A DNA stretch of 64,000 nt from an uncultured Pelagibacteraceae bacterium (GTDB lineage: Bacteria > Pseudomonadota > Alphaproteobacteria > Pelagibacterales > Pelagibacteraceae). The DNA is taken from positions 1 through 64,000 of the forward strand of contig CACLAC010000002.1 in assembly GCA_902604785.1 (NCBI GenBank), in the 5' to 3' direction. Shown piece by piece: positions 2,132-44,916 of the stretch; the first letter of the stretch is position 1, and the number at the start of each line of letters is the position of its first letter. A model generated the notes under the pieces. It saw only the letters and a list, made by a program, of their open reading frames with translations, searched no databases and was not told the origin of the DNA. The position numbers were made by a program, and so were the translations under genes.

Positions 2132-2205
2132 ATCTTTTTTTTTCCAAATAAAATAAAAAAAATATGGAGCTGTAGCTGGAAGAACACCAAGCCAAAACCA
2201 CAGAT
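2132..2205 (-). pseudogene. Remnant of the C-terminus of the 81-aa small membrane protein gene at 4892-5137
   Basis: Reverse strand encodes WFWLGVLPATAPYFFYFIWKKK, near-identical to WFWFGFIPATAPYLFYFIWKKK of the 81-aa ORF; the nucleotide match is obvious by eye. Lies directly after the stop of the second Amt-PP2C gene. Confidence 0.8.
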
Positions 2206-2209
2206 TGAT

Positions 2210-4438
2210 TTATTTTCCGATTCCAATGATAGTTAGATCATCATCAAGAATATCATTGTTTTCTTTAATTCCTTTTTCATTGTAATCCTTTTTCAAACTT
2301 TTTTTTCTAATTTCTTCAGTTGCATTTTCAAGTTCTTTTTTTAAAGAAAAGTTTTTGTGCTTTTTGATCAATTCTTTTACACCATCAATTCCTATTTCTT
2401 TATTATTTTCATCCAAACATTCTGAAAACCCGTCAGTAAAACAATATATTCTTCCCTCATCTAGTTTGAATGAAGCAAGTTTATAAACATCACTATATTT
2501 TTGTCTAATTACCGCTAAAGGAGTTGAGGAAGATGGAAATTCGGTAAAATTATCTCCTTTTCTCAATATTGCTGGTTGATGGCCGGCATTTGAAATTTCT
2601 ACTATATCGGTTTTTAAATTATAGCTACCAACAATTGATGTAATAAATGTTCCAGGTGGATTTGTTTCTTTCAAATCATTGTTCATTTCTAATAAAATTT
2701 CATTTGGTTTGAATTTTTGCCTAGCAAATATTTTGAAGAGGGTAATGGCTTTAGCCATTACCATTCCAGCATTTACTCCTTTTCCAGAAACATCTGATAA
2801 CGTAAAATAAAGTTGGTCATCATGAAGATAAAAATCATAAAAATCACCTGATATTTCTCTGGCTGGAATATTTAATCCATAAATAGGGTAATTTGATAAA
2901 TCTCTATTTGGCATTAATCTTTTTTGAACATTCATTGCAAGTTTAATTTCACTAGAAACCCTATTTTTCCATTTATTTTTTTGCTTTTCTGATTGTTCCA
3001 ACCTTTGCATTAAAACATTGTACTGAGTCCCAATAATTCCACTATCAGTAAATGGATCCTGCGGTGCTCTCATTGAATAATCTTCTGATTTAGCCTGCTT
3101 CGTTAATACTTCTAAAAGTTCGTGGGTATCAGTTGATGCATTGTGTTCTGAAATATTTAAACCTAGCTCTTCTTCTATTTTGCCAACTCTTAAAGGGAAA
3201 ATTAAATTGATTAATTTAAATATTATAAAGGATGAAAAGAAACAAAAACTACCAATGCTAACTATTCCTATTAGTTGAATTATTAATTGTTCAAACCTAG
3301 TTTTTTCAATTCCCATTAATTCAAAATTACCAAATAGTGCAACTGCAATTGTGCCCCAAATTCCACAAGCTAGATGAACTGGGATTGCACTTACTACATC
3401 ATCAATTTTCAATTTTTCTAATAAAACTATTGTTGATCCTGATACTAGTCCCCCAATACTTCCTATTAGAATAGCTTCCGAAGGTGTCACGTGTGCACAT
3501 CCTGCAGTAATTGAAACTAATCCTGCCAAAGGACCTGTGATCATGAATAATGGTTCGGGTTTTTTTAAAACTAGCACACCCATAATACTTGAAAAAATTA
3601 AACCGAATGAAGCAGATAAAAAAGTATTGATTAATATCAAAGGCACCTTTAAATCCATAGCCCCATTGGCTCCCCCATTAAAACCAAACCAACCAAACCA
3701 TAAAATTAACGCTCCCAATGCAGCCATAGGTGTGTTGCTCCCTTGGAAAGTTTTCCTTGCACCTTCTCTAAATCTTCCAGTTCTATTTCCAATAATTAAT
3801 AAAATTGAAAGTGCAACCCAACCTCCAACAGAATGAACAACTGAAGCACCTGCAAAATCTATGTATCCCATTTTACCAAGCCAACCAAATTTTTCACTTG
3901 GATCATCAAAATTAAATGCCCAGGCCCAATGACCAACTATTGGATATAAAAAACCTGAAGTAACAAATGTAATAATTACATATGAAAAAAATCTTAATCT
4001 TTCAGCAACTGCTCCTGATATAATAGTTGCTGCAGTAGCAACAAACATTGCCTGAAAAACAAAGTACGTCTGATAACCAGCTACATGAGTAGTAAAAAAA
4101 TAGAATCTATTTCCAAACAATCCCATTACACTTGTTCCGTACATTAGCGCAAAGCCAAAAGCCCAAAATGTAACCACAGCTATTCCAAAGTCGGTTACGT
4201 TTTTTAATGCTACGTTAATACTGTTTTTATTTCTAGAAAGACCAGACTCTAAACACATAAAGCCTGACTGCATCAAAAATACTAATATTGCGCAAATCAA
4301 TAACCAGAATGTATCTAGGTTTGCTTGTAGAATTGCATCTAGTCGAAATTCTAAAGCCTTTAATGTACCTTTTGTAGGCAGCTGATCAATCTTTGACTGA
4401 AGCTCGTTAATTAATGTTTGAGTATCGGCCTCAGTCAT
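2210..4438 (-). CDS. Ammonium transporter fused to C-terminal SpoIIE/RsbU-type PP2C phosphatase (paralog of 1-2056)
   Basis: 742 aa; Amt motifs FAGASVVHSVGGW and DDVVSAIPVHLACGIWG (twin His retained); C-terminal EISGDFYDFYLHDDQLYFTLSDVSGKGVNAGMVMAKA and DDDLTIIGIGK PP2C motifs. Confidence 0.95.
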   Translation of the reverse strand: MTEADTQTLINELQSKIDQLPTKGTLKALEFRLDAILQANLDTFWLLICAILVFLMQSGFMCLESGLSRNKNSINVALKNVTDFGIAVVTFWAFGFALMYGTSVMGLFGNRFYFFTTHVAGYQTYFVFQAMFVATAATIISGAVAERLRFFSYVIITFVTSGFLYPIVGHWAWAFNFDDPSEKFGWLGKMGYIDFAGASVVHSVGGWVALSILLIIGNRTGRFREGARKTFQGSNTPMAALGALILWFGWFGFNGGANGAMDLKVPLILINTFLSASFGLIFSSIMGVLVLKKPEPLFMITGPLAGLVSITAGCAHVTPSEAILIGSIGGLVSGSTIVLLEKLKIDDVVSAIPVHLACGIWGTIAVALFGNFELMGIEKTRFEQLIIQLIGIVSIGSFCFFSSFIIFKLINLIFPLRVGKIEEELGLNISEHNASTDTHELLEVLTKQAKSEDYSMRAPQDPFTDSGIIGTQYNVLMQRLEQSEKQKNKWKNRVSSEIKLAMNVQKRLMPNRDLSNYPIYGLNIPAREISGDFYDFYLHDDQLYFTLSDVSGKGVNAGMVMAKAITLFKIFARQKFKPNEILLEMNNDLKETNPPGTFITSIVGSYNLKTDIVEISNAGHQPAILRKGDNFTEFPSSSTPLAVIRQKYSDVYKLASFKLDEGRIYCFTDGFSECLDENNKEIGIDGVKELIKKHKNFSLKKELENATEEIRKKSLKKDYNEKGIKENNDILDDDLTIIGIGK

Positions 4439-4452
4439 AGATCAAATTCTAA

Positions 4453-4788
4453 TTAATCAACTAGTTTTCTCGCCTCTCCAGCATCATCAATAAATTTATC
4501 TGATTTTACAACCTTAACTACTTCAAATCCTGTGCCTAAAATTGCATTTTTAAACTCTTCTTCGTTTAAATTAGATTTATCTTCAAATGCAGAAACCGCT
4601 ACTCCTTCAGGCCAAGAAACTTTAACTTTTGCTGTAGGACTTACCGCAATTAATGCTTTTGTAACCATTTTTTGGCATTTGATACACATCATACCATTTA
4701 CTTGGCCAACCATAGACTCTGCTGCATAAAGTAAGTTGTTTATAGAAACAAAAAAAATTAAAAATAATATGCTTAATAATTTTCTCAT
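4453..4788 (-). CDS. Secreted/periplasmic heavy-metal-associated (HMA-like) domain protein
   Basis: 111 aa, signal-peptide-like N-terminus MRKLLSILFLIFFVSINNLLYAAES, then VNGMMCIKCQKMVTKAL with a CxxC motif in HMA-like context. Confidence 0.65.
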   Translation of the reverse strand: MRKLLSILFLIFFVSINNLLYAAESMVGQVNGMMCIKCQKMVTKALIAVSPTAKVKVSWPEGVAVSAFEDKSNLNEEEFKNAILGTGFEVVKVVKSDKFIDDAGEARKLVD

Positions 4789-4891: not shown

Positions 4892-5137
4892 TTATTCTTT
4901 TTTTTTCCAAATAAAATAAAAAAGATATGGAGCTGTAGCTGGAATAAAACCAAACCAAAACCATTCATCCCACCTAAATCCCTTGTCTATAGAAAGACTT
5001 TTTATGCCATTCCACCAGGTCAAATAGCCAATTAAAATCATCCAACCTAGGCTAATACTTACGAATATTTTTGCTTTGTCAGAAAAATTATATTTTGGAA
5101 TATTGTTAAAAAACTCTTTTATGTTATCTAAATTCAT
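4892..5137 (-). CDS. Small membrane protein of unknown function
   Basis: 81 aa with two hydrophobic segments; C-terminus duplicated at 2132-2205. Confidence 0.6.
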   Translation of the reverse strand: MNLDNIKEFFNNIPKYNFSDKAKIFVSISLGWMILIGYLTWWNGIKSLSIDKGFRWDEWFWFGFIPATAPYLFYFIWKKKE

Positions 5138-10000: not shown

Positions 10001-11544
10001 TATAATATTCTTGGTGCTATAAATACCAATAATTCATCTAGGTCATCAACATTTTTTTTACTTTTAAATAAATTTCCAACTACTGGAACATTTCCTATGC
10101 CCGGAACTTGTTTTTTTGAGTCTGCAACTTTATTTTTCTTTATACCACCAATTACTACTATATCTCCATCTGCTACTAATAATTTTGTTACAATTTCCAT
10201 TTTATTTAATGGTGGTTGTTCTGCATCACTGCTTTCATCTACTGAGTCATTATTAACTTTTATTTCTAATAAAACGTTTCCATCTCCAATAATGCTTGGG
10301 GTAACTACTAGTTTTAAAGCCGCTTCTTTAAATGAAGTGGTTGTTCCCTCAGCAGAAGTAGTTTGATAGGCTACTTCTTGACCTTGTGTAACTGTTGCAA
10401 TTTGATTATCCAAAGTAAATACCTTCGGGTTTGAAATAGTTCTACCAAAGCCTCTTGCCTCTAAAGCTGTTATTTCTGCTTTTAGAACTCCTGTCCCCGT
10501 AGCTTTCAAAATTCCTATACCACTTGTTGCACCTCCGGCACCTAGATTTGTTATAGTATCAACATTGCTAGCTAAAGCTGCGGATGTGTCACTTAATGTT
10601 CCGGCTGAACTAGTTCCCATTACTCCACCTATTTGCTTACCTCTTTTTTTCCAATATCCGCCAAGTTTTGTTCCTAACTCTCTTTCAAAATCAGAGTTTG
10701 CTTCAACTATAAAAGCTTCGATAAGAACTTGTTTTGTTCTTATATCAATTTCTTTGATAACTTTATCAACCACATCTAGATCTTTTTCTTTTCCTCTTAC
10801 AATTATTGATCTTGTTGTTGTTTCTTCAGTAATTTGAATTGGTGAAGAAGAAGATTCTCCGCCTGCTGAAAATAATTCATTAAGTGTATTTTTAGCTTCT
10901 GCTGGTGTTATATAATAAAGTCTAAATATTTCTGAGTAAATCGGTTCTACGCTGTCTTCCCATTCAACTTTCTTTTTTACAGCCTCAGCTCTTTCAGATT
11001 TATAATTTTCTTGTGCTGTCAAAGTTTCTGGGGAATGAATTCTTATCATATTACTTTTTACATCAATATCTGAAGCATAATTTTTCATATCCAGAATAGC
11101 TTGGAATGCTTTATCCCATGGAACATCTATTAATTCAGCTGATATTGCACCTGCAACTTCATCTCCTACTAAAACATTAATTTCTCCTATTTTACCCATC
11201 AATTTCATTGTTTCTTTGAAATCAAGATTCTTAAACTTCAAAGTTACTCTTTGTTTAAGTAAAGGATAATCATCTGGAATTATTAAATAATTTTTATTTA
11301 CTTCAGATGAAATTTTTTTTCTTTTACCTAGTTTTCTTGGATCTCCGTCAACTGGTTTTGGACCCATCTCTAAAGTTTTAGCTATTTCAGCTTGTTTTTT
11401 CTTCGCAATATCAGCTTTGATTAAAGGTGTATTGTGCTTAAAAGGTTTATTATATTTTTTAGCAAATTTAGAGTTTGCACATCCACTTAAAATTAAGGCT
11501 AATATAATAATACCAATCAATGAAAAAAACTTTTTAATATTCAT
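10000..11544 (-). CDS. pilQ: Type IV pilus secretin (PilQ/MshL family)
   Basis: Lipoprotein-like N-terminus (ALILSGCANS), secretin core IEAFIVEANSDFERELGTKLG ... GDIVVIGGIKKNKVADSKKQVPGIGNVPVVGNLFKS. Confidence 0.9.
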   Translation of the reverse strand: MNIKKFFSLIGIIILALILSGCANSKFAKKYNKPFKHNTPLIKADIAKKKQAEIAKTLEMGPKPVDGDPRKLGKRKKISSEVNKNYLIIPDDYPLLKQRVTLKFKNLDFKETMKLMGKIGEINVLVGDEVAGAISAELIDVPWDKAFQAILDMKNYASDIDVKSNMIRIHSPETLTAQENYKSERAEAVKKKVEWEDSVEPIYSEIFRLYYITPAEAKNTLNELFSAGGESSSSPIQITEETTTRSIIVRGKEKDLDVVDKVIKEIDIRTKQVLIEAFIVEANSDFERELGTKLGGYWKKRGKQIGGVMGTSSAGTLSDTSAALASNVDTITNLGAGGATSGIGILKATGTGVLKAEITALEARGFGRTISNPKVFTLDNQIATVTQGQEVAYQTTSAEGTTTSFKEAALKLVVTPSIIGDGNVLLEIKVNNDSVDESSDAEQPPLNKMEIVTKLLVADGDIVVIGGIKKNKVADSKKQVPGIGNVPVVGNLFKSKKNVDDLDELLVFIAPRIL

Positions 11545-12614: not shown

Positions 12615-14326
12615 TATGATTTCTCCACTATACAGGCTATTGTAAAACCTTTCATGGGTTGTTTTCCAGCCTGAGTATTATTTGGTGCACTCATACTTGC
12701 TAAAGATGCTTGTGAAATTAGTTTTTGATTATTCAAATTACCAATTAATTTTAATATATCTTGATCTCCATATGCGGATCCCCTAATCATAACCAAATCA
12801 CTTCCATTATAATCAATGGAGTCGAATTTTACTCTTTTTGGAACAGATGATGCAATTTGTGCCAAAATTCTGAAATTTATTCTCTTATTTGATTTTATGG
12901 TTTTGCTAAGCTTTATAGATTTGTTTAGTAATGATAATTCTTTTGTTACTTTATCTTTTTCTAATGTTTTTAGTTCGTATGATTGTAATACATCATCATA
13001 GCCGACTATTTTATTATTTAAATTATGAATTTGCCAAAAAGATAGTCCACCTAAAACAATATAGATTATTGCAACAAGACCTACTATTCCTTTAAAAGCA
13101 TAGTTTGAAAAAAATTTTGCCTTTTTTTGCGCGATCATGCTTTGTCTATCTGGAAGCAAATTTATATTTTTGACTGCAGTTACAAATTTGTAATATCCAA
13201 AAACATCTAATTTTCTAAAAGCTAAACCAATTACTGTTGAGAAATATGATCTGTTATTATATTTAACACTTTCTTCCATTTGAGCAGGAATTTTAATTCC
13301 ATCAAGAGGATCAAATAAATTAAATCCTGTATTAGTCATGCTTTTTCTAAAACTTGCAAGGTACTCATCTACATTTGGTAAATTGGAAGTGACTTTTAAA
13401 TTTCTAATTCTTTTTTCATACTTTGTTTCAAAATCTTGAACAGCTTGTTTAACCTGTGTTAAATATCTTCTAACAAGTGCATCTTTTTCATCCTGGTCGG
13501 TTGACTCGACTAATGTTTTTCTGTCTTGGCTTCTTATAAAAATATCTGTAATTATCGGATTATTTTCGTGTAAGATCATTACATAGTTTTCATCTAATCC
13601 AAATTCTAAAATTGCAGTTAAGTTTGAGTCTTCTATAGAACCTGCTATTTGATTTATTTGGTCAACTGCAGACTTTAATGCAAAACATTTTACATCTATA
13701 ATTACAGCATTTAACCCACCTTTTTTAATTATTTGTGTATAATTATTTATGTCAGAAAGTTTCGAGGCAACAAACAAAATGTCCATTGTGTTACCTTTCT
13801 CATCTTTATTTATAACCTGATGAAATATTGAATAATCGGCAAGATTATCAGTTAACTGTACTAGGTTTTCCCAAAGTGAGTCTGTATCTATTGCTTTACT
13901 TAATTCATCATCAGTCATCAATGGTGCAGTAACGACTCTTATAATTGCGCTAGTAACTGGTATTGCTATTGCAGCATTTGTTGTAGAAATTTTTGATTTT
14001 TGCAATGCTAGTTTTAATTCATCAGCTATTTTGTCAGGATTTTCAAGAACAGATGCATCTTCTGGAAGACCCTCAATTTTATGAACAAAAAATCTATCTA
14101 GTATCCACTGATTGGACTTATTATTTGATAATTGTGCTAATCTAATTTCGTTTGCATTTAGCTCAACTCCAACAATCTCTTCTCCTTGTACGGCTGATTT
14201 CCCTAATCTATTTTTTAAGTATTTATCAAAAAAACTAGTTTTTTTTTTAGCTCCAGTAATCCCAGGTTTTGGAGCATCTTCTTCTTTATTCTTTTTTTTA
14301 AATAAATCTTTAAATGGATTTTTCAT
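12614..14326 (-). CDS. PilM-PilN fusion protein of the type IV pilus alignment complex
   Basis: 570 aa; PilM actin-like part (VGVELNANEIRLAQLSNNK...) followed by PilN-like NINLLPDRQ, TM segment and coiled coil in one ORF. Confidence 0.8.
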   Translation of the reverse strand: MKNPFKDLFKKKNKEEDAPKPGITGAKKKTSFFDKYLKNRLGKSAVQGEEIVGVELNANEIRLAQLSNNKSNQWILDRFFVHKIEGLPEDASVLENPDKIADELKLALQKSKISTTNAAIAIPVTSAIIRVVTAPLMTDDELSKAIDTDSLWENLVQLTDNLADYSIFHQVINKDEKGNTMDILFVASKLSDINNYTQIIKKGGLNAVIIDVKCFALKSAVDQINQIAGSIEDSNLTAILEFGLDENYVMILHENNPIITDIFIRSQDRKTLVESTDQDEKDALVRRYLTQVKQAVQDFETKYEKRIRNLKVTSNLPNVDEYLASFRKSMTNTGFNLFDPLDGIKIPAQMEESVKYNNRSYFSTVIGLAFRKLDVFGYYKFVTAVKNINLLPDRQSMIAQKKAKFFSNYAFKGIVGLVAIIYIVLGGLSFWQIHNLNNKIVGYDDVLQSYELKTLEKDKVTKELSLLNKSIKLSKTIKSNKRINFRILAQIASSVPKRVKFDSIDYNGSDLVMIRGSAYGDQDILKLIGNLNNQKLISQASLASMSAPNNTQAGKQPMKGFTIACIVEKS

Positions 14327-21800: not shown

Positions 21801-23327
21801 AAACATGATGGAAGCACTCTAGGACCATTTGAATATATAGCTAAAAGTTATTTACTAAGTGATACTACAGAGGCTTTAGCAGTAACAGATGTTTATGAAG
21901 ATGATAAAACAGGTTCAGATAAAACATGTAATGACACTCTGCTTACAACTTGCTACTTAGAATATGAATGGACATGGGAAAATTTCCCTGGAAATGGAAT
22001 GACGGCTGCTGACTTTACCATAGTTGTTAATGACAAAACATTATCCAATGTTACAGTAACAAATACAAACAACACTCTAACTCTAAGGTTTCCAACTTCA
22101 ATAAACTATCAAGCTGATCCAGACAGGACAGCTGGGGCAGATCAAGTAGCTATTTATGTAAATCAAGCTTCTGCCGCTACAGGAGTTCAAAGTCCAAATG
22201 AAGATTATGATTATAGTGAACTTGGAGAAACATGGTCTGCACCAAGAGTAATAAGAATTCCAAATTTGGGTCCTAGTGATAATAATATTTACGATGATCT
22301 TTATGTTGCAGTTATGGGAGCTGGTTATGGTGCAAATTACCCAGGTGTAGGTTCTGGAGTTTATGTAATAAATTTAACTGATACTGAACGTCCTGGAAAA
22401 TTAGAGAAATTTATTGATATCAAAGATACTCCTGCAAATGGTATTAATAATTCAGTTCCAGGTGATGCAGTTGTAATAAATAGAGATAGTGCCAAAGGTT
22501 ATGTAAGCTATGGTGGCGCTATTGTATATGTAAATGACCTAGAAGGTAAAATTACAAAAATAAATTTAACTGATTTAATTGAACCAAATTTAAAATTATA
22601 TGATCATTACACAATGTTTGATGTTAAGAGTACCTCGTCTGATGGAAGACTTATGTATCATTCAATGGACGCGGCTATTGGAAAAGATACTAAGCAATTA
22701 TGGTTATTTGCAGGAACAGGAGATTATAATAATTTAACTGATACTACTTCAGTAGGTGGCAATATATTACTTGGAATTGCAGATGAAACGTTTCCAGAAT
22801 TTAAAACTCCAATAGATATTCAAAATTTTAATTCAGGAGCAACTATGGTGCCTCCAACAATAGATGATCTATCTACATGTTTAGACACAACAAAGGTAAC
22901 AGTTCTTTCTAGTTCTATCAAATGTCCAAAAAATATGGGCGCTGGAATATCTCCAAAGGAAGGATGGGTTATTTACTTAGACAACCATAAAAAAGTTACC
23001 TCCTCACCGACCGTATCCGGTGGAATTGCATATTTTCCAGTATTCTCACCTCCAATTTCTGGAGATAAATGTAGGAATGGTGCCGCTACTATTTGTGCTG
23101 TAGATGATGAATGTGGAACTAATGCCTCATCACTTTTAGGAACGCACGCAAAGAGTGATAAATGTTTATATGTTGGTGAAGGAATTCTTTCAAAAATTGT
23201 GACTTATGGTGGAAAAATATATGCCAATATCGCTGGTAAGTCTGACACCGGCAGTGATTTGATAGAAAAAGACTCAATCGGTATGGAAGTTGACATTACT
23301 AGAGGTACTTGGAAAGAAAATTTCTAA
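18819..23327 (+). CDS. PilY1-like type IV pilus tip adhesin with VWA domain and inserted beta-propeller-like segment
   Basis: About 1500 aa; signal peptide, MIDAS NVLILLDKSGSMS, later YIIVIGDGVWGN; PilY1-type C-terminal part (RKDIVYVGANDGMLHAIDFKTGVEKWAFIPPFILPKLPNI). Start likely ATG at 18819; ORF-track start is 18792. Confidence 0.85.
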   Translation: MNKNFTVKNTMYISLKVIILFLFFITQGYAKNLPPGSGEGDLPANVLILLDKSGSMSARSGSTGVDSRRPYRLAVGSTSVDGGRNVFLNSRWGSYDKRNISYDNKLTWKWKKNSPCHYNATTEVAEFYDGHFYFVNNYHKEREFCKVNQTTGKVTKIKTYNKNNYNFKGGDLYDKYLYLFSYNWSSPKIIIWDLSTEKSKECSYSSGWGTKDLGQTMTSWYFYSNGTPEINRAGTYMMAYGYDWWDTNKRGFYKYNITPGLNCPDKSNDQFIKYNYTSNGQIKHIESASTNDDYFYVANYSKHKIQRFDVSGSTITSSEIKEIGKNGKVDASYSPTSDSEVKFKNPYSIAVDSSNNRIYVADYNNNVIQVLSEENDGFEWVRNVGGRINQTRMTGAHQAIKSITTDANLTSGVHFGFAYWSSAATVWVYWNYNKYPKCRSIKSTLMTKYGVSSNHWWFSNANYTCRDRGGALPGYTGWDTTKNYDAIDKKYWGQGIPCDNDNCLKVRVNKEGAPRVAKEVVKVTPGGGTDAKVFTDIALQYFKHADSPRDPSYSCQVNYIIVIGDGVWGNHAAGLKNVKTLKNTYGVKTITIAYGGGIRSSGKANFREFAKAGGTADVIIADDPATLKSTLSAEINRILAERVSFTAPAITATIEEGGSLMQAQFKYVQNQEWRGTLKKTKLKEDGSVAKDSKGNPVVLWEADKVMPNPSERKIWSVVPGTDYTTDLNNIVTSNRDDILDMFTLFGSEINNYHRVTPKVAGSVSNTRCKSASLFGPTNAVLDSTTDDAEGLITFLRGLDYFDYDGDCNLTEIRKDTDGNKTYLGDIYHSEMITVGKPNAETKYSSQKEEAYWRALNNYDAWAAAGKLQNRKDIVYVGANDGMLHAIDFKTGVEKWAFIPPFILPKLPNIINESYNDDNKKGGSNAIFGVDGSPVQHDIYFKSPFDTAAKWNTVLIVPYGRGGNGFSAIIVTDPDKPRHLFSIYNDIINNKVHVMKHDGSTLGPFEYIAKSYLLSDTTEALAVTDVYEDDKTGSDKTCNDTLLTTCYLEYEWTWENFPGNGMTAADFTIVVNDKTLSNVTVTNTNNTLTLRFPTSINYQADPDRTAGADQVAIYVNQASAATGVQSPNEDYDYSELGETWSAPRVIRIPNLGPSDNNIYDDLYVAVMGAGYGANYPGVGSGVYVINLTDTERPGKLEKFIDIKDTPANGINNSVPGDAVVINRDSAKGYVSYGGAIVYVNDLEGKITKINLTDLIEPNLKLYDHYTMFDVKSTSSDGRLMYHSMDAAIGKDTKQLWLFAGTGDYNNLTDTTSVGGNILLGIADETFPEFKTPIDIQNFNSGATMVPPTIDDLSTCLDTTKVTVLSSSIKCPKNMGAGISPKEGWVIYLDNHKKVTSSPTVSGGIAYFPVFSPPISGDKCRNGAATICAVDDECGTNASSLLGTHAKSDKCLYVGEGILSKIVTYGGKIYANIAGKSDTGSDLIEKDSIGMEVDITRGTWKENF

Positions 23328-23524
23328 AATAAATAAAAGTAAAAGTAAAATATCCACAAAAAACCAGTTGCCATAGTCAAAAATATTAAAGCAAGTCCAA
23401 CTATAGTATCTTGATCAACTTTCTTTCTCCATTTTATTGGAAAAAAACTTAATGAATATGCGTAAACAATTAAAAAAACATTTAGTGAAGTAAAAATAAT
23501 ATTTGTGAATAAAAAATTTTCCAT
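23324..23524 (-). CDS. Small membrane protein of unknown function
   Basis: 66 aa, two hydrophobic segments; ATG overlaps the TAA of the duplicated autotransporter 3' end (TAATGG). Confidence 0.5.
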   Translation of the reverse strand: MENFLFTNIIFTSLNVFLIVYAYSLSFFPIKWRKKVDQDTIVGLALIFLTMATGFLWIFYFYFYLF

Positions 23525-23573
23525 TAGAAAACTTTATTTAATGATATATTGGCATTTTGACTTTTACTATCAT
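23517..23573. repeat. 57-bp direct repeat, copy A (flanks sulfotransferase-like gene)
   Basis: ttttccattaGaaaactttatttaatgatatattggcattttgacttttactatcat; one mismatch to copy B at 24390-24446. Confidence 0.95.
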
Positions 23574-23585
23574 AAATTTAAACAA

Positions 23586-24383
23586 TCAACTATAAATTTT
23601 TGGTGATGGTATATATTTTAATAATCTAAAAATCTTTTTAAAACGTTTATATCTTAAAATCTTTCTATAAAATTTTTCTCCAAAAATTTTTAGATTTTTA
23701 AATAAAAAAAATAATATTTTATTTAATATTAAATGATAATAAATTTCATTTTCTAAATAACTAGAATTTTCCTTATTAAGGTTAAGTTCCTCTGTATTAA
23801 CATTTAAAATTTTTGAAAGTTGAATTTTAAATTCCTCAGGATTGTTCTTTAATTGATCAAATTTCAAAATGTGGACTTTAAAGAATTTTTCATAATAAGA
23901 CTTTATCTTTTGAACATCTAAAAATTCTTTGTTTATTAAGAAAAAATTTTTATAATCTTTGTAGCTTATAGTGCAACCTGTCTTAACGGCAAAATCATAT
24001 TGTGATCTATAAAAACTTTCGTCTTTGTCTCTTTCGATAATCAATATTTCTGCTTCAGGTATAATCTCTTTTAGTAAAATTACTGCATTTTCATGATATT
24101 TCTCCGCATTAAAATTTTTTAATGGCTTAAAATCAAATTCTGTAAGAATTGGAACTGGAAAACCTATATTTTCACAAGAATATGCTATGCATTTAATTTT
24201 TTTTGCTCCGCTATCAATATTAATTTCTGTATTTGAATCTGAAATATTTTTAATAGAATTAGATAATAATTTATGATGTAAGCTGGATCCAGCGTCTAAA
24301 ATAATTTCTGGATGTTTTTCAAAAGCTATTTGTATACTTGTTGAAGCTGCTCTTCCCATCCCAATGTGTATGATTTTTTTCAT
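23586..24383 (-). CDS. Sulfotransferase-like protein
   Basis: 265 aa; N-terminal MKKIIHIGMGRAASTSIQIAFEKHPEI resembles the PAPS-binding P-loop-like motif of sulfotransferases; KVHILKFDQLKNNPEEFKIQLSKILN. Confidence 0.7.
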   Translation of the reverse strand: MKKIIHIGMGRAASTSIQIAFEKHPEIILDAGSSLHHKLLSNSIKNISDSNTEINIDSGAKKIKCIAYSCENIGFPVPILTEFDFKPLKNFNAEKYHENAVILLKEIIPEAEILIIERDKDESFYRSQYDFAVKTGCTISYKDYKNFFLINKEFLDVQKIKSYYEKFFKVHILKFDQLKNNPEEFKIQLSKILNVNTEELNLNKENSSYLENEIYYHLILNKILFFLFKNLKIFGEKFYRKILRYKRFKKIFRLLKYIPSPKIYS

Positions 24384-24389
24384 ATAAAT

Positions 24390-24446
24390 TTTTCCATTAA
24401 AAAACTTTATTTAATGATATATTGGCATTTTGACTTTTACTATCAT
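24390..24446. repeat. 57-bp direct repeat, copy B
   Basis: ttttccattaAaaaactttatttaatgatatattggcattttgacttttactatcat; encodes the last codons (DSKSQNANISLNKVF*) of the autotransporter-like gene. Confidence 0.95.
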
Positions 24447-26688
24447 GAAGAAGATCAGTATCAATATTGAATTTTAGATCAAAACCATTAAATTTTTTAA
24501 CAATATTAAAACCTGTTTGAATTGTTTCACTGCCACTAATAGATAATGCATACTCTGTTTCTGTATTTGGAACCCATCCTGCAGTAAAGTTCAAATTATC
24601 TGTATTACCAGTTCCATTTTCTGCATAATCTATTTCATAATTTAAAATTATAGACCAACCATTTATTGTTGATAAATCAAAACCTAATCCTGCTTTATAA
24701 TTATGTGTAGACTGATTTCCAATTTTTATATAATTGTATGGGTTAGGACTACTTACATATGAAACATGAGTACTAGTTGATGGACTAAAATCAGCAGTAT
24801 ATTCTAAACGAACCATAGGTTTTAGCACATTCCCATTATTAAATTGTTTAGTACTATCAACTAACATTCCTATAGAAGCTAAACCTTTTGGAATTCGATG
24901 CTTGTCATAAATTAACGCATGAGCACTTCCACTTTCTTGAAAAGTAGCTAGTTCTGTATAACCAAAATCAAATCTTGCAGTTGGATTTATATTAATATTT
25001 TTTTTATAGTATATTTTATTTAATTTAATCGACCCAAAAGCTTGTTTGCCGTCCCTTTTTCCTCTTAAATTAACACCCTCTTTTTTCCTTAAGTGATATG
25101 TTTTCAACGTACTTACGCCTAATGCTGCATCTAAAAAACGTCCATCTTCATGAGGCAATGTTCCATAAAAAACTAAACTATAATTATCAGTATCTAATAG
25201 AGCAGCGGAATTACCAATGTCAGCACTATCTCTTCCAAATTGAAGTGCATAACCGTACATTTTATTTTCAGTTACTTTTTTATCTGCACCAATTGTTATA
25301 TTGTTTGTATCTATCTCTTTCCTTGAAGAGCCTGAGGTTGCTTCTATATCGCCAATACTAACTTGTCCTTCACTCCAAAAAAACCAATCACCCTTCTGCT
25401 CTTCATTAGTTGAACTTTCTTTATTTCCTACAGGTATTACTTTAGCTAATGAAGCAAGCATTTCGTTAGAAAAGTTAAATTTTAAATTCTGATTTGTTAA
25501 ATTGTCTTCTTTTCTATGTCTTCTTAACCATTCAAGACGATGCATAACTGGTTTTATATTATTCTTCATAACTCTTTTGGACATTTCGGTATAAGATTCT
25601 AAAACCCCAATCATATCTTTATCAGAATCTGAAACAGGGTTTTTACAAGTGACTACTCCGTAAGGACAGTCCAAACTATACTGTAAAATCGCTTGTCTTA
25701 ATATGCTCTTACCGGACTCCCATCTAGACCATGTGGTATATAATTTTGATCCATCATTGTTAAATTCCATATACTTTAATTCTCCAAAAATACTGTCTCC
25801 GGTTGCAGCTTCTATGATTTCCTGATATTTTGCAGTCAAATCTATACTTCCTAAATGAGCAACTGTAGATGATAAATCAAAACCAGTAGATAAACTGTAT
25901 TGATGTATCTTATCACCATTTGCATCAGCTTCGCCATCTGAGTCAATTACAAACATCATTGTACCATCATCATTAAATCGAAGACCGCTTGGATTATCTA
26001 TACCCTCTGCTTCTAAATCATAAGATTGGCCAGAGTCTGAAGCTGTATTAATATCAAATCCTTCAGATAAATGAAATTCATAAACACTATTACCCCCATT
26101 TGTTGTTACAAACATTTTTGTACCGTCAGAGTTAAATGACAATCCATAAGCATCATTTTCACCGATATTTACTGCTGCAGTATCAGTTAGATCAATTCCT
26201 TTTTTGTCAGGATCTGTATTTGTTGTAATATCATAATTAGTACTTAAATTAATTTCACAAATATCACTATCGAGAGTATTATTTAGTTCATTGGTCAAAA
26301 AAAGTTTTGAACCGTCATTATTAAAAAATGCATCACCTGGTTGTTGAAACTTACCACTACCACCGCATCTTAATCTAATACCCAATTCATCATTAAAAAG
26401 AACTGTACCTCGAATATCCCAAGGGGTTCCTAAGTCATACTCAAAAATATCATCATCACTACTGCCAGCAGAGGAAGTTGTTTTTGAATGTACTATATAC
26501 ATTTTAGTTCCATCTGAATTGAAAGTTATTCCTCTATAAGCTCGAAAAGCATGGTCTAACATACTTTCAGACACTCCTGCACTAACTTTGTCTATCTGCA
26601 AGCTAGCTTCAAAAGTAGCCGCAGCAAAAGAATTATTTTGAAATATTGATAAAAAAAAAATGTTTATAAATAATATTATTTTTTTCAT
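24397..26688 (-). CDS. Autotransporter-like surface protein: N-terminal beta-propeller repeats, C-terminal beta-barrel
   Basis: 763 aa; repeated FNSDGTKMYIV / FNNDGSKLFLT / FNSDGTKMFVT / FNDDGTMMFVI motifs; C-terminal region of alternating strands ending in Phe. Confidence 0.7.
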   Translation of the reverse strand: MKKIILFINIFFLSIFQNNSFAAATFEASLQIDKVSAGVSESMLDHAFRAYRGITFNSDGTKMYIVHSKTTSSAGSSDDDIFEYDLGTPWDIRGTVLFNDELGIRLRCGGSGKFQQPGDAFFNNDGSKLFLTNELNNTLDSDICEINLSTNYDITTNTDPDKKGIDLTDTAAVNIGENDAYGLSFNSDGTKMFVTTNGGNSVYEFHLSEGFDINTASDSGQSYDLEAEGIDNPSGLRFNDDGTMMFVIDSDGEADANGDKIHQYSLSTGFDLSSTVAHLGSIDLTAKYQEIIEAATGDSIFGELKYMEFNNDGSKLYTTWSRWESGKSILRQAILQYSLDCPYGVVTCKNPVSDSDKDMIGVLESYTEMSKRVMKNNIKPVMHRLEWLRRHRKEDNLTNQNLKFNFSNEMLASLAKVIPVGNKESSTNEEQKGDWFFWSEGQVSIGDIEATSGSSRKEIDTNNITIGADKKVTENKMYGYALQFGRDSADIGNSAALLDTDNYSLVFYGTLPHEDGRFLDAALGVSTLKTYHLRKKEGVNLRGKRDGKQAFGSIKLNKIYYKKNININPTARFDFGYTELATFQESGSAHALIYDKHRIPKGLASIGMLVDSTKQFNNGNVLKPMVRLEYTADFSPSTSTHVSYVSSPNPYNYIKIGNQSTHNYKAGLGFDLSTINGWSIILNYEIDYAENGTGNTDNLNFTAGWVPNTETEYALSISGSETIQTGFNIVKKFNGFDLKFNIDTDLLHDSKSQNANISLNKVF

Positions 26689-27446
26689 AACATTGCATGT
26701 AAAAAACTATCTTTAAATACTATAAAAATCATTGTTGCAATAATTATGTAGGGTCCAAAAGGTATTTGAGAGCTTAGTTTTTTTGATTTTTTTAATAAAT
26801 CTGGAATGACAATGATTAAAGCTGTAACTGATGAAAGAAAAATAACAAATGGAATTGAAATCCAGCCAAACCAAAAGCCAATAACTGCCAAAAGTTTTGC
26901 ATCACCTAATCCCATTCCTTCTTTGTTTCTAATTTTTTTATAAAAGACAATTAAAAACCAAATAATTCCATATCCTATTATTCCACCAAGCAAAGAATTT
27001 ATATAATTTGGAAAAATAGGGCTTAAGTTTGGGTCAAAAGATTTAAAAAATCCTAATGCCATCATAGGAAAAGTTAAAACATCCGGAATGATATAATGCT
27101 TTAGATCAATAAAAAAAATTATTAAAAACGATAAAAATAATATCATTAATAAAATTGTTGTAAGAGAAATTCCAAATAAATAATAAATAATTAAAAAAGA
27201 AATAATACTTATCGCTTCAACTATCAGATATTGAGTTGAAATTTTTTTTTTGCATTTGCTGCATTTTCCTCCAAGTATTAAATAAGATAAGACAGGTATA
27301 TTTTCATACCAAAATATTTTTTTTTTACACTTTGGGCAAAATGATCTTCCTTTGACAACTCCTCCTTTTAATGGAAGTCTATAAATGCAAACATTGGCAA
27401 AGCTTCCCCATAATGACCCTAGAATACCAACTAGTAAAAGATCCAC
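26685..27446 (-). CDS. pilD: Prepilin peptidase / N-methyltransferase
   Basis: GSLWGSFANVCIYRLP, two CxxC pairs (FCPKCKKK, KCSKCKKK), GLGDAKLLAVIGFWFG active-site motif. Confidence 0.93.
   Translation of the reverse strand: MDLLLVGILGSLWGSFANVCIYRLPLKGGVVKGRSFCPKCKKKIFWYENIPVLSYLILGGKCSKCKKKISTQYLIVEAISIISFLIIYYLFGISLTTILLMILFLSFLIIFFIDLKHYIIPDVLTFPMMALGFFKSFDPNLSPIFPNYINSLLGGIIGYGIIWFLIVFYKKIRNKEGMGLGDAKLLAVIGFWFGWISIPFVIFLSSVTALIIVIPDLLKKSKKLSSQIPFGPYIIIATMIFIVFKDSFLHAML

Positions 27447-42301: not shown

Positions 42302-44916
<2,615 letters not shown>

Follow-up and report, generated by a model that had tools for sequence, protein, structure and literature searches.

Gain of a single gene next to a duplicated autotransporter gene end in a SAR11 genome

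Background

How can a dense SAR11 genome gain a gene without breaking neighbours that overlap? Such events have little documentation at base resolution. The question is raised by the window analysed here, a stretch of 64,000 nucleotides from an uncultured Pelagibacteraceae bacterium (contig CACLAC010000002.1), in which two copies of a 57-bp direct repeat bracket one gene, with no second gene between them. An original prediction, made from the letters of the DNA, described this gene as sulfotransferase-like and proposed an insertion at the overlap of a stop and a start codon, with duplication of a gene end, resembling att-type site-specific integration but carrying no recombinase. The locus has the following features, all on the minus strand.

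23324..23524 (-): orf66, a gene for a small membrane-type protein (66 aa); the target neighbour
23517..23573 (-): repeat copy A, comprising a relict of the AT 3' end, the stop and the orf66 start; its orf66-side flank matches the empty site of AG-439-F23
23574..24389 (-): inserted segment of ~816 bp, essentially a single ORF, absent from the empty site
23586..24383 (-): ST, a weakly sulfotransferase-like gene (265 aa)
24381..24398 (-): MEKFI* stub, the first orf66 codons; its TGA overlaps the ST start codon
24390..24446 (-): repeat copy B, comprising the functional AT 3' end and the start of the MEKFI* stub
24397..26688 (-): AT, a 763-aa autotransporter (PF03797); the target gene, duplicated at its 3' end
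26685..27446 (-): prepilin peptidase, bordering the variable slot on its upstream side

Results

The repeat pair

The two copies are identical at 56 of 57 positions, a match of a kind that occurred in none of 100 dinucleotide shuffles. Their one mismatch (A/G at 23527/24400) is synonymous for the AT C-terminus (Phe, TTC/TTT). When up to three mismatches were allowed, the 1.04-Mb assembly contained these two copies and no others, and self-comparison of the window shows weaker similarity beyond the 57 bp, giving a repeat of 65 bp at 95%. Sequence comparison therefore bears out the predicted placement of the repeat around ST only.

AT ends in ...DSKSQNANISLNKVF*, and its stop overlaps the orf66 start (TAATG). 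The same codons recur in copy A, fused to the start of orf66, and copy B retains 12 nt of that start, which yields MEKFI*; in all of this the sequence agrees with the prediction. The TGA of the stub overlaps the start codon of ST (ATATGAAAA), which suggests that the stub could couple ST translationally or supply its translation start. The inserted segment reaches ~12 bp past the ST stop and ~6 bp ahead of the ST start, and, as predicted, it encodes no recombinase. An assembly or amplification chimera is unlikely, given real substitutions between the copies and the 94% identity of the relict at a second locus, described below.

Direction of change

The nearest genome with the locus is that of Pelagibacteraceae AG-439-F23 (SAR11), which has an empty site: a single repeat copy, with AT leading straight into orf66. 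ST is therefore a gain, and it was gained recently by insertion. The predicted insertion with duplication of a gene end is thus upheld by a single-copy empty site of the sort that the prediction had proposed to look for, together with the lack of ST, one marginal local match apart, in 398 other genomes of the genus. Because copy A continues into orf66, with a flank like that in AG-439-F23, it is the original AT/orf66 junction, and copy B and ST are the addition.

The relict in copy A matches its own AT at 56 of 57 positions, the AG-439-F23 ortholog at 89% and the paralog in its own genome at 68%. Being closest to its own AT, it arose in this lineage or in one very closely related, and these values rule out the remnant of a tandem AT paralog. 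Copies A and B also have lineage-specific changes in common relative to AG-439-F23, and the duplication is therefore younger than the split from that genome.

Genomic setting

Type IV pilus genes, autotransporters and paired ammonium transporters make up the region. Passages of Wilhelm et al. (2007; PMC2217521) describe the SAR11 hypervariable region HVR1 with such gene content, and the insertion site falls within a known hypervariable region. The slot between orf66 and prepilin peptidase (23324-27446) is a hotspot, for which SAR11 genomes show at least five types of content: some relatives have nothing there, and others have an autotransporter, pilins, a FecR operon or an adenylate-cyclase/phosphatase-type gene. 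Convincing relatives of orf66 occur in ~70 of 399 genomes of the genus. The possibility that relatives carry ST between orf66 and pilY1 was ruled out, as other genes occupy those slots.

Two further observations concern genes of these classes. Compared with AG-439-F23 (locus L065), the translocator and C-terminal part of AT mostly show 80-97% DNA identity and the passenger ~50-60%, as if the passenger had been swapped. In another locus (L080, 10599-10697 / 11148-11246), adjacent pilin genes have 99-bp starts that are 99% identical, which suggests recent duplication or conversion.

The inserted gene

The sulfotransferase-like label given to ST by the prediction survives as a weak resemblance. 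Its best Pfam match is Sulfotransfer_3 (E = 0.014), whose 16.1 bits lie below the curated cut-off of 27, followed by Sulfotransfer_4 (E = 0.052), also sub-threshold. Searches of NCBIfam and PDB gave no match, and a single-sequence structure model (mean pLDDT 40) was set aside. No homologues were found in 398 other genomes of the genus, apart from one marginal local match, and none in phages, viral contigs or 289 class-level genomes. With a GC content of 22.8%, ST stands at the 11th percentile among 726 ORFs of the same genome.

Two further scars

A scan of 787 kb of the 1.04-Mb assembly yielded three scars with the same geometry, consisting of an intact gene, added genes, and then a 57- to 68-bp relict of the gene end. 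The locus above is scar 1, and the other two lie at unrelated genes. Scar 2 is in the window and has the following parts.

4896..4963 (-): intact 3' end of p81, an 81-aa gene (4892-5137)
2133..2200 (-): p81 3' relict (68 bp at 94%); it lies upstream of amt1 and retains the flank ACCTATTYTGAGC of the ancestral p81-amt1 junction
2210..4788 (-): added block of amt-SpoIIE (amtS2, 2210-4438) and a heavy-metal-binding protein gene (HMA, 4453-4788)

After the relict comes ACCTATTCTGAGC. What lies downstream of p81 varies among relatives: amt1, HMA-amtS2 or other content. ACCTA lies no more than 16 nt from the p81 stop in 10 of 16 amt1-type loci and in none of seven HMA-type loci, the window being among the seven. 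By this pattern, the relict marks the original junction of p81 with amt1; the block consisting of the p81 end, HMA and amtS2 is then the addition, unless duplication shuffled the order. The arrangement p81-HMA-amtS2 is a natural haplotype in relatives (L177, L179, L181 and L182). The gene order at scar 2 as a whole is unlike that in most relatives.

Scar 3 is on another contig (C11; L170 10977-11034 / 13163-13220, G000:C11). It duplicates a nucleotidyltransferase 3' end (58 bp at 90%), and its relict is placed after a 678-aa radical-SAM gene (B12-type), apparently in a surface-polysaccharide region. Elsewhere in the assembly (G000:C1, 44492-44563 / 44583-44654), the 5' end of a ParA-like gene is copied directly upstream of the gene (72 bp at 86%).

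Scanning 400 kb of one control genome (G424) and 416 kb of AG-439-F23 (G023) turned up none, nor was there a clear case among 823 kb of relatives' loci. The three repeats have no motif in common above shuffled controls. Their relict lengths (57, 58 and 68 bp) are much alike, with three cases being too few to judge.

Discussion

A proposed capture through homology on one side

We give somewhat better than even credence to a one-ended homologous capture, retained where the duplication preserved both overlapping neighbours. The incoming DNA fragment would have carried an AT end followed by ST, and would have been captured at AT through homology on that side. Its far end, just past the ST stop, would have been joined without extended homology to a point in the resident AT ~57-61 bp short of its end. 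The route could have been homology-facilitated illegitimate recombination (HFIR); alternatively, a short linear fragment could have circularized and then undergone a single RecA crossover. The product would be AT-stub-ST-[AT 3' relict]-orf66. The relict probably survived because it carries the ribosome-binding region and start of orf66; if selection acts to retain the overlapping start of a downstream gene, it would favour those insertions that bring a duplication of this kind.

Both the empty site and the joining of the insertion at a homologous gene end favour the capture, as do the close match of the relict to its own AT, the recurrence of one scar geometry at three unrelated genes and the lack of a motif common to the repeats. 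At scar 2, the relict has the p81-amt1 flank, and HMA-amt comes after the intact p81, an order shared with several relatives. Several points count against it. The presumed donor haplotype, AT-ST, was found in no genome; the assembly, at 70% completeness, yielded no ComEC; the three relict lengths are curiously alike; and the scans of G424 and AG-439-F23 found no scars, with no clear one in the relatives' loci. Classical HFIR, moreover, usually results in deletion and not duplication.

Alternative explanations

A tandem duplication of the segment AT 3' end-orf66-ST, followed by loss of the first orf66 (leaving MEKFI*) and of the second ST, is viable, especially for scar 2, and on the whole unlikely. 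It accounts for the stub as a remnant of orf66. Moreover, six relatives' loci (L188, L190-L192, L195 and L196) have the order p81-amt1-HMA-amtS2, from which a single tandem duplication plus two losses would yield the order in the window, p81-HMA-amtS2-relict-amt1. Wilhelm et al. (PMC2217521) also report that tandemly duplicated genes are gained and lost in SAR11 HVR1. However, no relative has ST adjoining orf66, or ST anywhere, and at scar 1 at least two extra events are required.

The att-type integration of the original prediction, with a recombinase-less cassette mobilized in trans into a gene 3' end, has the right geometry: the gene is restored, the relict lies at the far end, and an empty site exists. 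One Xer-like recombinase is usual in the genus, being present in most relatives, and small cassettes with direct repeats of tRNA ends occur in other streamlined marine bacteria (PMC7771536). Nonetheless, PF00589 has no matches in the insert or in the assembly (70% complete), and the three repeats differ. The lack of both a common motif and a tyrosine recombinase in this incomplete assembly argues against a common att site. The cargo of scar 2 consists of ordinary chromosomal genes in a haplotype that relatives also carry, and the relatives' loci examined showed none of the alternative cargo that the prediction had proposed to seek at the 57-bp site. We therefore consider this part of the prediction improbable. 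An integron gene cassette was rejected, as the ~12 bp between the ST stop and AT-derived sequence is too short for an attC site and PF00589 is lacking from the incomplete assembly.

Template switching or staggered-break repair, in which foreign DNA was copied in and synthesis resumed ~60 bp back to leave a long target duplication, would in one step explain the near-identical local copy and the stub, and repeat lengths are similar at the three sites. We nevertheless regard it as decidedly improbable: the block added at scar 2 already holds the p81 end of a natural haplotype.

Significance

Taken by itself, the ST locus is ordinary hypervariable-region traffic. We doubt strongly that SAR11 has a recombinase-independent or trans-mobilized process that adds genes one at a time at the 3' ends of others and characteristically duplicates 57-68 bp, keeping overlapping neighbours functional; if true, this would be a general route for loading genes into the hypervariable regions of streamlined genomes. 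A chance end-joining accident in DNA uptake or repair explains the data better than a new mobile cassette. The gene-end relicts are readable scars of single gains that tell which side is new, and they could be tallied over thousands of single-cell genomes to reveal the recombination route.

Comparison with known systems

When linear DNA with one homologous end enters E. coli, the dominant product is an insertion flanked by a duplication (PMC3240628). Part of the target was duplicated in 56 of 60 clones tested, over 109-950 bp in sequenced clones, and the products were read as a degraded fragment that circularized and then underwent a single crossover (PMC3240628). Those clones have the geometry of the scars described here, with homology on one side of the insertion and, as is proposed for the scars, an illegitimate joint on the other; they differ in that the duplications here are 57-68 bp, natural and in SAR11.

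At T6SS/Rhs loci, displaced gene 3' ends have been proposed to remain downstream (PMC5361080). There too the incoming gene follows a conserved upstream part and pushes old 3' sequence downstream, but here the old gene is intact, only ~60 bp is left, and there is no toxin-immunity logic. The cassettes at tRNA ends in Ca. Actinomarinales (PMC7771536) are likewise small, with a gene end directly repeated at their borders, whereas here the target is protein-coding, the sites differ among scars and no recombinase was found. Finally, according to the passages on SAR11 HVR1 in PMC2217521, that region acquires and loses type V autotransporters and ammonium transporters, the same gene classes as those seen here; gene-end repeats are not described in those passages.
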